From Tritonibacter mobilis (GTDB taxonomy: Bacteria > Pseudomonadota > Alphaproteobacteria > Rhodobacterales > Rhodobacteraceae): DNA of 64,000 bases. Numbering within the stretch: position 1 is the stretch's first letter; the number at the start of each line of letters is the position of its first letter. This document shows, piece after piece, positions 39,737-46,547 of the stretch. Made by a program: the position numbers and the translations under genes. Below the pieces are notes generated by a model, which did not search any database, was not told the origin of the DNA, and saw only the letters and a list, made by a program, of their open reading frames with translations. Location: the NCBI RefSeq assembly GCF_001681715.1, contig NZ_LNWY01000003.1, positions 248,001-312,000 of the forward strand. The letters are read 5' to 3'.

Positions 39737-40768
39737 ATGTCAGAGTCAAAAATCCGCAATATGGAAGAGCTGGCCAGCGTCAGCGGCATCTCCCGACCCA
39801 CTCTTTCGAAATACTTCAACGACCCCGAAAGTGTCCGCGCCTCGACCCGCAAAAAAGTTGAGGCCGCTCTAGAGACCTATGACTATCAGCCCAACATCTA
39901 CGCGATGAACCAGAACCGGCGGCTGACCAAGAATATCGGCATCGTTGTGCCCTACCTCGCCGACCCGTTCTTTGCCGAGATCGCGCGCGTGATCGAAAAT
40001 CTGGTCATTCAAGGTGGCTTCCGCCCGATCCTCCTCAGCTCTCATGGCGGCACCGGGCAAGAGATCGAAAACCTCGACTCACTGCGCTCGATCCGACCGG
40101 CCGGGGTTTTGCTGGCCCCGCTGGGTCGCAACTCTGACGTGGCCGCGATCGAACGCTTCTGTGCTGATGTGCCAACTGTTTTATTTGACAACAGCATTGG
40201 CGATCTGGGCGAAGCCTTCTTTGGCCTCGACAATCCTCAAAGCATTAAAATGATGGTGAATTACCTGCACGAGACAGGAGAGCCGCCGATTTTCTTTGAG
40301 ATGCGGACACCCACCAACCCCAATGCCTATAAGCGCCGCAATGCCTATATTGAATCGATGGAAGCCTTGGATCTAGAGCCCAAGTTGATCCAGATCGAAG
40401 GCGATACATGGGACTTTGAAGACATTGGCTACCGGGGCGGGCTGGAGGCCATCCGCACGCGCCAACTGACCACTGACACTGTGCTATGTTCAAATGACCG
40501 TCTGGCGATTGGGTTCCTGGCCGCCGCCTATGAATGCGGACTTCGGGTTGGATCTGGGACGGGCTGCGCCCTGCGTGTCGCGGGCCACGACGACCACCCT
40601 TATGCGCGCTTCACCTGCCCACCGCTCACCACCGTAGCACAGGACTATTCCGCCATCGCAACCCGCAGCGTCGAGGCGATTCTCAAACTGATCGAATCGG
40701 GTGAGCGCGCAGAGCAACGCGACACCACCCTATTTGAAGGCACATTGATCAAACGCGCCTCCGCCTGA
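39737..40768 (+). CDS. LacI family regulator of the polyol operon
   Basis: The 343-residue repressor has an N-terminal helix-turn-helix (MEELASVSGISRPTLSKYFND) with the hinge helix, then a periplasmic-binding-like sensor domain with IGIVVPYLADPFFAEIARVIE and the family end of a subunit interface. AGGAGG lies 4-9 nt before the ATG. It is 130 bp upstream of smoE and in the same direction. Its likely operator is the palindrome at 40813-40826. The inducer is probably a hexitol, inferred from the genes it precedes. Confidence 0.9.
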   Translation: MSESKIRNMEELASVSGISRPTLSKYFNDPESVRASTRKKVEAALETYDYQPNIYAMNQNRRLTKNIGIVVPYLADPFFAEIARVIENLVIQGGFRPILLSSHGGTGQEIENLDSLRSIRPAGVLLAPLGRNSDVAAIERFCADVPTVLFDNSIGDLGEAFFGLDNPQSIKMMVNYLHETGEPPIFFEMRTPTNPNAYKRRNAYIESMEALDLEPKLIQIEGDTWDFEDIGYRGGLEAIRTRQLTTDTVLCSNDRLAIGFLAAAYECGLRVGSGTGCALRVAGHDDHPYARFTCPPLTTVAQDYSAIATRSVEAILKLIESGERAEQRDTTLFEGTLIKRASA

Positions 40769-40839: not shown

Positions 40840-40898
40840 ATAACCCCTCCCGCGCCCTACCGTGATTGCATCACATCCAGACACTAGGGAGGAAACGG

Positions 40899-42209
40899 AT
40901 GTACCTGAGAAACGCACTTTGTGCGGCATCTGCACTTGCAGTCATGGCGGCTGGCGCCGTTCAGGCCGAAACCACGGTGACCATTGCCACCGTCAACAAC
41001 GGCGACATGATCCGCATGCAGGGTCTGGCTGACGATTTCACCGCACAACACCCCGACATCAAACTGGAATGGGTCACGCTTGAGGAAAACGTGCTCCGTC
41101 AACGTGTCACCCAGGACATCGCCTCCAAAGGCGGCCAGTTCGACGTGATGACCATCGGCACTTATGAGGTCCCGATCTGGGCCAAGAACAACTGGCTGGT
41201 CTCGCTCAACGACATGCCATCGGAATGGGACGCCGACGACATCCTGCCCGCGATCCGCGGTGGTCTGACCGTTGACGGCAACCTCTATGCCGCACCGTTT
41301 TATGGCGAAAGCTCCATGGTGATGTACCGCACCGACCTGATGGAAAAAGCAGGCCTCGAGATGCCCGATGCCCCCACATGGGAGTTCATCAAGGAAGCCG
41401 CCGCAGGCATGACCGACAAGGACAGCGAAGTCTACGGGATCTGCCTGCGCGGCAAGGCGGGCTGGGGCGAGAACATGGCCTTCCTGACCGCCATGTCCAA
41501 CTCCTTTGGCGCCAAGTGGTTCGATGAGAACTGGACCGCGCAATTTGACTCCGAGGCATGGAAAACCACCCTCACCTTCTACATGGACCTGATGACGAAC
41601 TACGGCCCTCCGGGTGCTTCTACCAACGGGTTCAATGAAAACCTGTCGCTGTTCCAGCAGGGCAAATGCGGCATGTGGATCGACGCCACCGTTGCGGCGT
41701 CCTTTGTGACCAACCCCAACGACTCCACTGTGGCCGATAAGGTCGGCTTTGCACTGGCACCGGACAATGGTCTCGGCAAACGCGGCAACTGGCTCTGGGC
41801 GTGGACGCTGGCGGTTCCGGCTGGGTCCGACGCCACCGATGAGGCCAAGACCTTTATCGAATGGGCCACCTCCAAGAGCTACACCGAGCTGGTCGCCTCC
41901 AAGGAAGGCTGGGCCAACGTGCCTCCGGGCACCCGCACCTCACTCTATGAGAACCAGAACTATCTCGACGCGGCCCCCTTTGCCGAGATGACCCTGAACT
42001 CGATCAACGCCGCCGACCCGACCAACCCTTCTGTGGACCCGGTCCCCTATACCGGCGTGCAATTTGTGGCGATCCCGGAATTTGCGGGCATCGGCACGCA
42101 GGTCGGTCAGGAATTCTCGGCAGCACTGGCCGGTCAGCAATCCGTGGATGAGGCGCTTGCAAAAGCACAGGCGCTCACCACCGACGAAATGGAAGCCGCA
42201 GGCTACTAA
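40899..42209 (+). CDS. smoE: polyol (sorbitol/mannitol) ABC transporter periplasmic binding protein
   Basis: The 436-residue precursor has a signal peptide (MYLRNALCAASALAVMAAGAV, cleavage before ETTV) and the family-1 sugar-binding fold, with IASKGGQFDVMTIGTYEVP and PFYGESSMVMYRTDL. It captures hexitols for the SmoF/SmoG/SmoK importer in Rhodobacter-type operons. GGGAGG lies about 6 nt before the ATG at 40899. A hairpin with a T-run separates it from smoF, which suits higher expression of the binding protein. Confidence 0.92.
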   Translation: MYLRNALCAASALAVMAAGAVQAETTVTIATVNNGDMIRMQGLADDFTAQHPDIKLEWVTLEENVLRQRVTQDIASKGGQFDVMTIGTYEVPIWAKNNWLVSLNDMPSEWDADDILPAIRGGLTVDGNLYAAPFYGESSMVMYRTDLMEKAGLEMPDAPTWEFIKEAAAGMTDKDSEVYGICLRGKAGWGENMAFLTAMSNSFGAKWFDENWTAQFDSEAWKTTLTFYMDLMTNYGPPGASTNGFNENLSLFQQGKCGMWIDATVAASFVTNPNDSTVADKVGFALAPDNGLGKRGNWLWAWTLAVPAGSDATDEAKTFIEWATSKSYTELVASKEGWANVPPGTRTSLYENQNYLDAAPFAEMTLNSINAADPTNPSVDPVPYTGVQFVAIPEFAGIGTQVGQEFSAALAGQQSVDEALAKAQALTTDEMEAAGY

Positions 42210-42262: not shown

Positions 42263-42313
42263 CTCTCTGTCGCAGTCTTGGATGGGCCTGACCCATCTGA
42301 CGAGGAGTCCCCC

Positions 42314-43180
42314 ATGGCAACCCAGCATTCCCGCTCTGCCGCGCGCATCATGATGGCCCCGGCCGTCATCCTGCTGCTCGGTTGGATGCTCGTTCCGCTG
42401 ACAATGACCCTTCTTTTTTCGTTCAAGAAGTATCTCCCCCTGCGGGGCGGCGATCTGGGTTGGGTCGGCTTTGACAACTACATTCGTTTTGTTTCGTCCT
42501 CTGCCTTCTGGCCCAGCGTGCAGGCGACGCTTGTGATCGTCGGCGGCGTTCTGGCCATTACCGTCATCTTCGGCGTGTTGCTGGCGCTGCTTCTGGACCA
42601 GCCGATGTGGGGACAGGGGATCGTGCGGATCCTTGTAATTGCGCCCTTTTTCGTGATGCCAACCGTGTCGGCACTGGTCTGGAAGAACATGTTCATGGAC
42701 CCCGTGAACGGGCTCTTTGCGCATCTTTGGAAAGCCTTTGGCGCGGAGCCGATTTCGTGGCTCTCCGAGGCGTCGATGCAGTCGATCATCCTGATCGTCA
42801 GTTGGCAGTGGCTGCCCTTTGCGACCCTGATCCTGCTGACCGCGATCCAGTCGCTCGACAGCGAGCAGCTTGAGGCGGCAGAGATGGATGGCGCAAGCCC
42901 CCTCGCCCGCTTTGGCTATATCATCCTGCCCCACCTTGGCCGGGCGATCACCGTTGTGGTTCTGATCCAGACGATCTTTCTGTTGTCGATCTTTGCCGAG
43001 ATCTTCGTGACCACGGGCGGTTCCTTTGGCACCCGGACCCTGACCTTCCTGATTTTCCAGCGCGTCTTGGAAAGCCAGAACGTCGGCCTCGGCTCCGCTG
43101 GCGGTGTCTATGCCATCATCCTTGCCAATATCGTTGCCGCATTCCTGATGCGCATCGTCGGCAAGAACCTCGACGCGTAA
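42314..43180 (+). CDS. smoF: polyol ABC transporter permease 1
   Basis: The 288-residue membrane protein has six predicted helices. The EAA loop (AAEMDGASPLARFGYIILPHLG) lies near residues 192-213, where the SmoK ATPase docks. GAGGAG lies 6-11 nt before the ATG at 42314. It pairs with SmoG to form the channel of the sorbitol/mannitol importer. Confidence 0.92.
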   Translation: MATQHSRSAARIMMAPAVILLLGWMLVPLTMTLLFSFKKYLPLRGGDLGWVGFDNYIRFVSSSAFWPSVQATLVIVGGVLAITVIFGVLLALLLDQPMWGQGIVRILVIAPFFVMPTVSALVWKNMFMDPVNGLFAHLWKAFGAEPISWLSEASMQSIILIVSWQWLPFATLILLTAIQSLDSEQLEAAEMDGASPLARFGYIILPHLGRAITVVVLIQTIFLLSIFAEIFVTTGGSFGTRTLTFLIFQRVLESQNVGLGSAGGVYAIILANIVAAFLMRIVGKNLDA

Positions 43181-43195
43181 GGGAGGACCACCGAT

Positions 43196-44026
43196 ATGGC
43201 ACGTTCCGTGACCCAACAACGCAAGGCGATCAACACCGTCGCCGCATGGGCGGTTGGTCTTTTGATCTTCTTCCCGATCCTCTGGACCATCCTGACCTCC
43301 TTCAAGACCGAGGCGCAGGCGATCAACGACCCGCCGCTGTTCTTCTTCTTTGACTGGACGCTGGAAAACTACGCCGTGGTGCAGGAGCGCTCTGACTACA
43401 TGCGCTTTTTGTGGAATTCGATCGCAATCGCGGGCGGCTCCACTGTGCTTGGTATTATCATCGCAATCCCGGCGGCGTGGTCGATGGCCTTTGTGCCCTC
43501 CAAACGCACCAAGGATATCCTGCTTTGGATGCTCTCGACCAAGATGCTGCCTGCGGTGGGCGTGCTCTACCCGATCTATCTGATCTTCATCCGCCTTGGG
43601 ATGCTCGACAGCCGCACCGGCCTCATCATCGTGCTGATGCTGTGCAACCTGCCGATCATCGTCTGGATGCTCTACACCTACTTCAAGGAAATCCCCGGCG
43701 AAATTCTCGAAGCAGCGCGGATGGATGGTGCAGGCCTCAAAGAAGAAATCCTCTATGTGCTGACGCCGATGGCGATCCCCGGCATCGCCTCCACGCTGTT
43801 GTTGAACATCATCCTCGCGTGGAACGAGGCCTTCTGGACGCTGAACCTGACAGCCGCCAAAGCCGCGCCTCTTACGGCCTTTATCGCCAGCTATTCCAGC
43901 CCCGAGGGCCTGTTTTACGCAAAACTCAGCGCAGCCTCCACCATGGCCATCGCGCCGATCCTGATCCTTGGCTGGTTCAGCCAGAAACAACTTGTGCGCG
44001 GCCTGACCTTTGGCGCTGTGAAATAA
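43196..44026 (+). CDS. smoG: polyol ABC transporter permease 2
   Basis: The 276-residue membrane protein is of the MalG type, with the EAA loop EAARMDGAGLKEEILYVLTPMAIPG near residue 175. It starts 15 bp after smoF with GGGAGG upstream. It forms the other half of the importer's channel. Confidence 0.92.
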   Translation: MARSVTQQRKAINTVAAWAVGLLIFFPILWTILTSFKTEAQAINDPPLFFFFDWTLENYAVVQERSDYMRFLWNSIAIAGGSTVLGIIIAIPAAWSMAFVPSKRTKDILLWMLSTKMLPAVGVLYPIYLIFIRLGMLDSRTGLIIVLMLCNLPIIVWMLYTYFKEIPGEILEAARMDGAGLKEEILYVLTPMAIPGIASTLLLNIILAWNEAFWTLNLTAAKAAPLTAFIASYSSPEGLFYAKLSAASTMAIAPILILGWFSQKQLVRGLTFGAVK

Positions 44027-44038
44027 GGACGACGAACT

Positions 44039-45042
<1,004 letters not shown>

Positions 45043-45046
<4 letters not shown>

Positions 45047-45072
45047 TACCGCGCGGACACTGGATGAGCTGA
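45043..45072 (+). pseudogene. smoS: 9-codon remnant, probable deletion scar of sorbitol dehydrogenase smoS
   Basis: Between smoK and mtlK there is only ATG ATA CCG ... TGG ATG AGC TGA (MIPRGHWMS). It has GAGG 8 nt before its ATG, overlaps the smoK stop as ATGA and the mtlK start as TGATG. In Rhodobacter the short-chain dehydrogenase SmoS occupies this slot, and as I recall its C terminus reads GGNWMS. The remnant thus looks like the start codon of smoS joined to its last codons after an in-frame internal loss. The ribosome signals on both sides are kept. Confidence 0.6.
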
Positions 45073-46547
45073 TGACGACTCTGACCCTTTCAAATGACAC
45101 TCTCGCCGCCCTGCCCGAGACCATCGCCCGCCCCTCTTATGACCGCAGGGCGTTGACTCCCGGTATCGTCCACATCGGGCTTGGTAATTTCCACCGCGCC
45201 CATCAGAGCTGGTATCTGCACCGGCTGATGCAACAGGGAGAGGCTCAAGACTGGGCGATCCTTGGCGCGGGCGTACGCCCCTATGATGCCGCGATGCGCA
45301 CGCGTTTGCTGGCGCAGGATTGTCTCACCACCTTGATTGAATTGTCCCCCGACACAACCTCGGCCGAGGTTGTGGGGTCAATGATCGACTATTTGCCGAT
45401 TGAGGATGGAAACGGCGCGCTGATCGCCGCCATGGCCCGCCCCGAGATCCGCATCGTGGCGCTGACCGTTACCGAGGGCGGCTATTACCAAGACCCGGTT
45501 GCGGGCGGTTTTGACCTCGCGCATGCCGACATTCAGCACGATATCACCACCCCCAATGCACCGCGCACGGCCTTTGGGGCGATCGTCGCGGCCCTTGGAC
45601 AGCGCCGCGCCTCAGGCACTGGTCCTTTCACCGTGCAAAGCTGCGACAACCTGCAGGGAAATGGCGATATCACCCGCCAGACCGTGCTTGGCCTTGCGCG
45701 CGCCGTGGATGCAGAGCTTGCGGATTGGATCGCGGCAAACTGCACGTTTCCAAACTCCATGGTGGATTGCATCGTCCCTGCCACCGGCCCGGCGGAGATC
45801 GCAAAAGCCGCAGAGATGGGCGTCGCCGATCAGGCCCCCGTCACACATGAGCCCTTCCGCCAATGGGTCATTGAGGACAGTTTTTGCGCCGGACGTCCCG
45901 ATTGGGACAAGGTGGGGGCGACCTTCACCGATGCGGTGCACGCCTATGAGACGATGAAAATCCGCATTCTCAACGCAGGCCATCAGGTGATCGCCAACGC
46001 GGGCGAGCTGTTGTCCTGTGCCACCATCGCAGACTGTATGGAAGACGCTGATATCCGGTCTTTGTTCGAAAAAGTCGAAACCGAAGAGATCGCGCCTTAT
46101 GTGCATGCGGTGCCAGAGATCACACCCGAAGCCTATGTGGCGCTGATTGCATCGCGGTTTTCTAATCCTGCAATCCGTGACACCACCCGGCGGGTGGCCT
46201 TTGATGGCTCGTCACGGCACACGGGTTTTGTGCTACCAATTCTGCGCGATGCGCTGGTGGCGAATGCCAGCATTGACGGCCTCGCCTTGGTTGAAGCGCT
46301 TTGGGCTAGGATGTGCGCCGGCACGCGCGAGGACGGCAGCGAAATCGCAGCCAATGATCCAAAGTGGCAGGAATTGCAGACAGCCGCGCACGCCGCAAAA
46401 TCTGCCCCCTCCGCATGGCTTCGACAGGCGGATTACTACGGCGACATTGCACAAGACGCCCGCTTTGCAGAGCGTTTTTGCCATTGGCTCTCTGTGATTT
46501 GGACCAACGGCACCCGCGCGGCCTTGCAAGCCTATGCACGCAGCTAA
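45072..46547 (+). CDS. mtlK: mannitol 2-dehydrogenase family protein
   Basis: The 491-residue long-chain polyol dehydrogenase oxidises mannitol (often also arabitol or sorbitol) to the ketose with NAD+. It has the N-terminal nucleotide fold GIVHIGLGNFHRAHQSWYLH. The catalytic Lys-centred helix is in YETMKIRILNAGHQVIANAGELL, with the conserved Lys, Asn and His. It starts on the TGATG overlap with the smoS remnant. It is the only polyol dehydrogenase left in this operon. Confidence 0.93.
   Translation: MTTLTLSNDTLAALPETIARPSYDRRALTPGIVHIGLGNFHRAHQSWYLHRLMQQGEAQDWAILGAGVRPYDAAMRTRLLAQDCLTTLIELSPDTTSAEVVGSMIDYLPIEDGNGALIAAMARPEIRIVALTVTEGGYYQDPVAGGFDLAHADIQHDITTPNAPRTAFGAIVAALGQRRASGTGPFTVQSCDNLQGNGDITRQTVLGLARAVDAELADWIAANCTFPNSMVDCIVPATGPAEIAKAAEMGVADQAPVTHEPFRQWVIEDSFCAGRPDWDKVGATFTDAVHAYETMKIRILNAGHQVIANAGELLSCATIADCMEDADIRSLFEKVETEEIAPYVHAVPEITPEAYVALIASRFSNPAIRDTTRRVAFDGSSRHTGFVLPILRDALVANASIDGLALVEALWARMCAGTREDGSEIAANDPKWQELQTAAHAAKSAPSAWLRQADYYGDIAQDARFAERFCHWLSVIWTNGTRAALQAYARS

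Follow-up and report, generated by a model that had tools for sequence, protein, structure and literature searches.

In the smo operons described in PMC10433430 and PMC3458964, the transporter genes are followed by the place of the sorbitol dehydrogenase gene smoS and then by mtlK. The same order is present in the 64,000-nt stretch of Tritonibacter mobilis DNA that we analysed here (the window), with the difference that the place of smoS is cut to nine codons. This raises the question of what the short sequence between smoK and mtlK is and how it arose. All features of the locus lie on the forward strand. A gene for a LacI-type regulator (39737–40768) is located upstream of the operon, whereas a DeoR-type regulator, SmoC, is described for Sinorhizobium meliloti. 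It is followed by genes for a smoE-type substrate-binding protein (40866–42209), two sugar ABC permeases of the smoF type (42278–43180) and the smoG type (43196–44026), the 335-aa ATPase of a polyol ABC transporter, smoK (44039–45046), and a 491-aa protein of the mannitol dehydrogenase type, mtlK (45072–46547). The transporter genes and mtlK are open and full length, and neither smoK nor mtlK shows signs of decay. The names smoE, smoF, smoG, smoK and mtlK were assigned from operon order and kinship: within the operon only the ATPase exceeded a curated NCBIfam cut-off (UgpC-type subfamily), the binding protein and both permeases, like the regulator upstream, had matches under the cut-offs only, and the best MtlK matches, fructuronate reductase (352 bits) and D-arabinitol 4-dehydrogenase (343 bits), were both below cut-offs of ∼600.

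The initial annotation had called a nine-codon open reading frame (ORF) at the smoK–mtlK junction, and re-reading the sequence bore this out: positions 45043–45072 read ATG-ATA-CCG-CGC-GGA-CAC-TGG-ATG-AGC-TGA, i.e. nine codons plus TGA. The coordinates likewise agreed with the signals claimed around it. A GAGG motif, the putative inherited Shine–Dalgarno (SD) site of smoS, lies at 45031–45034, 8 nt 5′ of the ATG. Stop–start overlaps are present on both sides, namely an ATGA with smoK, whose stop codon (45044–45046) lies inside the start of the ORF, and a TGATG with mtlK, whose ATG begins at 45072 on the TGA of the ORF.

At the same place, seven genomes of the same genus (G012, G011, G006, G005, G007, G009 and G002) carry an intact smoS of 256 codons. 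Their neighbouring proteins are 86–96% (SmoK) and 76–83% (MtlK) identical to those of the window, with just part of smoK included in the loci of G007, G009 and G002. The smoS gene of G012 (locus L003) scored 446 bits against NF005472 (L-iditol 2-dehydrogenase / SmoS), for which the cut-off is 338. When the junctions were aligned, as the initial annotation had proposed for smoS-intact close relatives, the window showed a single gap of 741 bp, a length divisible by three that corresponds to 247 codons and is in frame. To the right of this gap, the arm at 45053–45072, GCGGACACTGGATGAGCTGA, aligned with the 3′-terminal 20 nt of intact smoS, stop codon in register, and it encodes ..GHWMS*, compared with ..GNWMS* in the nearest relatives. 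In the 21 nt that precede the mtlK start, 18 positions were identical to G012, G006 and G005, a value equalled by none of 20,000 shuffles, and 15 were identical to G011, equalled by four of 20,000 (four relatives compared, with the final 3 nt kept constant in the shuffles). The SmoS tail GGNWMS, to which the initial annotation had likened the HWMS of the ORF, is indeed encoded in G012, G006, G005 and G011 (GGNWMN in G007 and G009, GGNWLN in G002). Compared with the GNWMS codons of G012, G006 and G005, the window carries one change, AAC to CAC (Asn to His).

The left arm comprises at minimum the ATGA at 45043–45046, which is common to the smoK stop and the smoS start. Its presence at the 5′ end is certain, yet it is accounted for by the smoK stop. 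The arm could reach to ∼45059, with 13 of 17 nt identical to G005. Across the seven relatives, however, the first 17 nt match smoS at 9–13 positions, as opposed to 12–17 among the relatives themselves, and it is therefore possible that the event took place in two steps or that a little filler sequence was inserted at the left breakpoint. A split model that combines left and right smoS ends explained 25 of 29 nt with G005, 24 with G012 and G006 and 21 with G011. The intact smoS of the relatives, the 741-bp gap and the match at the 3′ end support well the earlier proposal that the body of smoS was lost by deletion and its ends left behind, and we put the probability that the 30 bp at 45043–45072 are a smoS deletion scar at roughly 95%. 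In this event, an ancestral smoEFGK–smoS–mtlK operon would have lost 741 bp of smoS, and the first few codons of the gene would have been joined to its last six or so.

Alternatively, the operon might never have had smoS, in which case the 30 bp would be a plain spacer in which an ORF happens to be open. Indeed, 5 of the 18 genomes of the genus (G015, G016, G013, G001 and G003) have smoK followed by mtlK without smoS, with junctions dissimilar to that of the window. However, these five lie outside the eight-member clade of the window (support 100/100), and no junction among them scores better against smoS than its own shuffles, whereas the 3′ half of the window's junction agrees in register with the end of smoS. 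A tree built from SmoK and MtlK joins the window to the smoS-bearing G006 (support 100/99), and the end branch of the window is short (0.037). Rather than close relatives without smoS and with unrelated junctions, which the initial annotation had named as evidence against a scar, we found smoS in all seven other members of the clade, which would most simply date the loss to the branch that leads to the window alone. The other refuting outcome that it had named, intact smoS ends that do not align with the 30 bp, was likewise not observed. Together, the in-register match and the position inside a smoS-bearing clade refute, in our view, an operon that never had the gene, and we give this explanation almost no weight.

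Another concern is that the true genome carries smoS and that the assembler skipped 741 bp, or that a variant within the culture was sequenced. The scar was found in a single genome, that of the window, as might be expected of an artefact; its 32-mer (45043–45074) is single copy in the 4.72-Mb assembly. On the other hand, the scar has a C where the seven clade relatives have an A (GGACAC versus GGAAAC or GGGAAC), its fifth base is a T where all seven have a G, and it is no plain join of any relative's ends. Moreover, the other parts of the assembly, which has 59 contigs, yielded no smoS. We consider an assembly error or culture variant very unlikely. Plasmid records were also searched for another strain of this species: 241 of them matched, and none covered 80% of the query at one place; the best match listed had ∼79% over half of the query, in a collection from which records of the nearest genomes may be left out.

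A search for a smoS paralogue in the rest of the genome, also suggested by the initial annotation, was in keeping with a loss of smoS. No SmoS match at E ≤ 1e-75 was found elsewhere in the window's assembly and, unlike the G012 gene at the same place, which belongs to NF005472, no protein of the window's genome exceeded the 338-bit cut-off of this family. Matches over the cut-off were present in 10 of the 18 genus genomes searched, the window's own being one of the 18. The best of the 25 SDR matches in the window's genome (C57) was evaluated as a relocated or replacement SmoS and rejected, given its identity of 42%, its score of 245 bits and its location in another gene cluster, between a binding-protein-like and a permease-like ORF according to their translations read by eye. 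Its candidacy is also countered by the smoS-bearing G011, which carries a similar-scoring match beside its own smoS.

Why did these particular ends survive? In 37 of 50 smoS-bearing operons, mtlK has an in-frame start that either shares one base with the smoS stop or sits 13 nt inside smoS, so that the end of smoS is often the mtlK initiation region (some of these 37 rows list a later mtlK start too, and the other 13 operons have no overlapping start). In the clade of the window, the overlap between smoS and mtlK is TGATG, or TAATG in G011. The right arm would thus have survived because the 3′ end of smoS carries the mtlK initiation region, with no need to invoke a role of the mini-ORF, and the left arm because the smoK stop lies within it. 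Such deletions seem to be bounded by the smoK stop and the mtlK initiation site: the one in the window would have been halted leftward by the former and rightward by the latter, leaving both ends in place. We also considered a repeat-mediated deletion. GCGGAAA is present in phase at both smoS ends in G005, but we do not claim it as the cause. In-phase repeats of ≥6 bp between the smoS ends were found in 5 of 45 intact genes, compared with a mean of 2.6 and a maximum of 8 in codon shuffles, and since this is no clear excess, a repeat mechanism is unproven.

At the mini-ORF start, we computed a GAGGA site of −5.6 kcal/mol, the same as for smoS in G011, G006 and G005; GAGGA is the top-scoring site of smoS in three of four relatives and of the mini-ORF. 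The site of mtlK itself scored −3.8 kcal/mol at a spacing of 3 nt, compared with −4.8 to −6.5 at 13 nt in the relatives, all scores being computed against an anti-SD sequence. The inherited GAGGA and the weak mtlK site make a stop–restart relay plausible, and such a relay is possible because the deletion kept the frame: ribosomes would start at the old smoS GAGG, read the nine codons as far as the TGATG overlap, terminate there and reinitiate on mtlK. Judging from the computed site scores, we consider this relay somewhat better than an even bet, and the weak mtlK site is no more than suggestive of mtlK translation that depends on the mini-ORF. The account as a whole, i.e. an in-frame deletion of smoS whose ends were spared by the neighbouring genes and which would still allow a relay to mtlK, we regard as very probable.

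Selection could also have acted on the nine-codon ORF itself, as a regulatory leader or a small peptide. The inherited start site and the overlaps on both sides are consistent with such a role, as is a remnant of 37 codons that arose independently in Roseovarius lutimaris (L058) and is likewise in frame. Furthermore, among the 28 smoS-less junctions that have a spacer, 8 carry an ORF that bridges smoK to mtlK, compared with 4.1 ± 1.4 expected. This excess is exploratory, since the criterion was set after the junction list had been viewed, related rows were counted separately and the mtlK start was chosen by rule. Moreover, 20 of the 28 junctions have no bridge, and 9 further junctions (out of 37 smoS-less ones; 7 of the 9 in one clade) couple mtlK directly to smoK. 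For the window itself, an open bridging frame was present in 90% of shuffles of a spacer this short, so its bridge carries little weight alone. The initial annotation had described the mini-ORF as 'kept'. We do not follow it on this point, as the shuffles bridge nearly as a rule and the overlaps with the smoK stop and the mtlK start explain the retained ends. A leader or peptide selected for its own sake is therefore unlikely, and it is doubtful, though less so, that the in-frame scar was selected rather than a product of chance (1 in 3).

Insertions in the smoS gene of S. meliloti are reported to be polar on mannitol growth, which plasmid-borne mtlK restores (PMC10433430), and a coupling-preserving deletion would therefore be a cheap route to smoS loss. 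Among the smoS-less operons, coupling would have been kept or rebuilt through in-frame mini-ORFs (the window and L058), through direct smoK–mtlK overlap or through a new ribosome site. A tentative reading, which we consider less likely than not, is that recurrent smoS loss is filtered by coupling, with the overlapping ends serving as a translation relay to mtlK and the overlap predicting the form of the scar.

Globally, mtlK was detected at E ≤ 1e-140 in 237 of 394 genomes of the family sample and smoS at E ≤ 1e-75 in 207 of 394. On a tree of 87 rows, the presence of smoS changes at least 19 times, a count that is blind to gain versus loss, and well-supported branches require 10 changes when L054 is scored as smoS-minus. 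This locus has two smoS copies, both far from mtlK, and scoring it as smoS-bearing left the tree count at 19. The 87 rows were drawn from 91 loci, leaving out L049, L045 (same junction as L130), L133 and L135. Loci L002, L003, L063–L065 and L068 represent the same operons as L140–L143 and were not used, nor were L059–L061 and the paralogue loci L078–L091. The smoS-less junctions, 37 in number, are a convenience sample and no census: 18 smoS-less family genomes were picked by eye among the matches listed, and in 2 of these (L133 and L135) smoK does not adjoin mtlK.

Of the 37 smoS-less smoK–mtlK junctions, 11 scored higher against intact smoS than any of their 40 shuffles did (the window itself, listed as L062, and L043, L044, L050, L051, L058, L124, L127, L129, L130 and L136); about one chance match is expected in 37, the weakest are L050, L130 and L136, and four of these junctions come from related Ancylobacter. 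In all 11, the remnant is a 3′ part of smoS (nt 501–771 in L124, elsewhere within approximately the final 100 nt), whereas no remnant was detected in the remaining 26. The remnants at smoS-less junctions indicate that several of the presence changes are losses. Like the window, L058, L124, L129 and L130 have retained the smoS 3′ part beside mtlK, but their junctions are ∼100 to 500 nt long, compared with 25 nt in the window, and all except L058 are more decayed.

Manual inspection of single loci revealed further variation. The remnant of R. lutimaris (L058, 6879–8001) runs from the smoK ATGA overlap to the smoS stop and ends in ...YNVDSGQWIT, and the smoK of this locus matches in two overlapping pieces, which suggests a frameshift. 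In L124 (G052), ∼500 nt separate smoK and mtlK and hold a strongly diverged smoS remnant in one 167-codon frame (36% identity over residues 71–256, several gaps in the nucleotide alignment, a bridge in ∼1% of shuffles). After smoK, L007, L138 and L139 carry a more distant SmoS-like SDR with 58–61% identity to R. sphaeroides SmoS, and in L138 and L139 the smoS stop overlaps the mtlK start as in ordinary smoS operons.

For S. meliloti, mtlK is described as serving the use of mannitol and D-arabitol, sorbitol excluded, and the likely cost of the deletion is therefore sorbitol and galactitol. By analogy, the window strain would continue to use mannitol and D-arabitol, whereas oxidation of sorbitol and galactitol through the operon has likely been lost. 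The suggestion that the host relies on MtlK alone for hexitols was not established, as the S. meliloti analogy points to lost oxidation rather than to a takeover by MtlK. The mannitol dehydrogenase of R. sphaeroides, however, is reported to have some sorbitol activity, and our prediction is therefore no more than an analogy.

The in-frame deletion of this operon gene is real and well supported. It is of an ordinary kind and has a tidy form, and as such it is a clean natural counterpart of the in-frame deletions made within operons in the laboratory. Among the best matches of a literature search, which gave operon descriptions, we found no report of smoS deletion scars. PMC3458964 describes how the order of the genes that flank the sorbitol dehydrogenase gene varies, and the terms 'gene loss' and 'lost' are absent from its text. 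The general lesson on overlaps and gene-loss scars is modest: if coupling does filter deletions, gene overlaps would shape what is left of lost genes, and this could be read from short spacers that annotation ignores.

Two minor observations concern the other genes of the operon. The window's genome contains one MtlK-family match, whereas one or more further homologues, with ∼36–38% identity, are present in each of G012, G011, G006 and G005. The identity of smoE to the window is 95–96% in G012 and G011, 81% in G006 and 72% in G005. Unlike smoE, the smoF, smoG and smoK of G006 and G005 (L142 and L143) are ∼90–96% identical, and the binding-protein gene may thus have been exchanged in some lineages.
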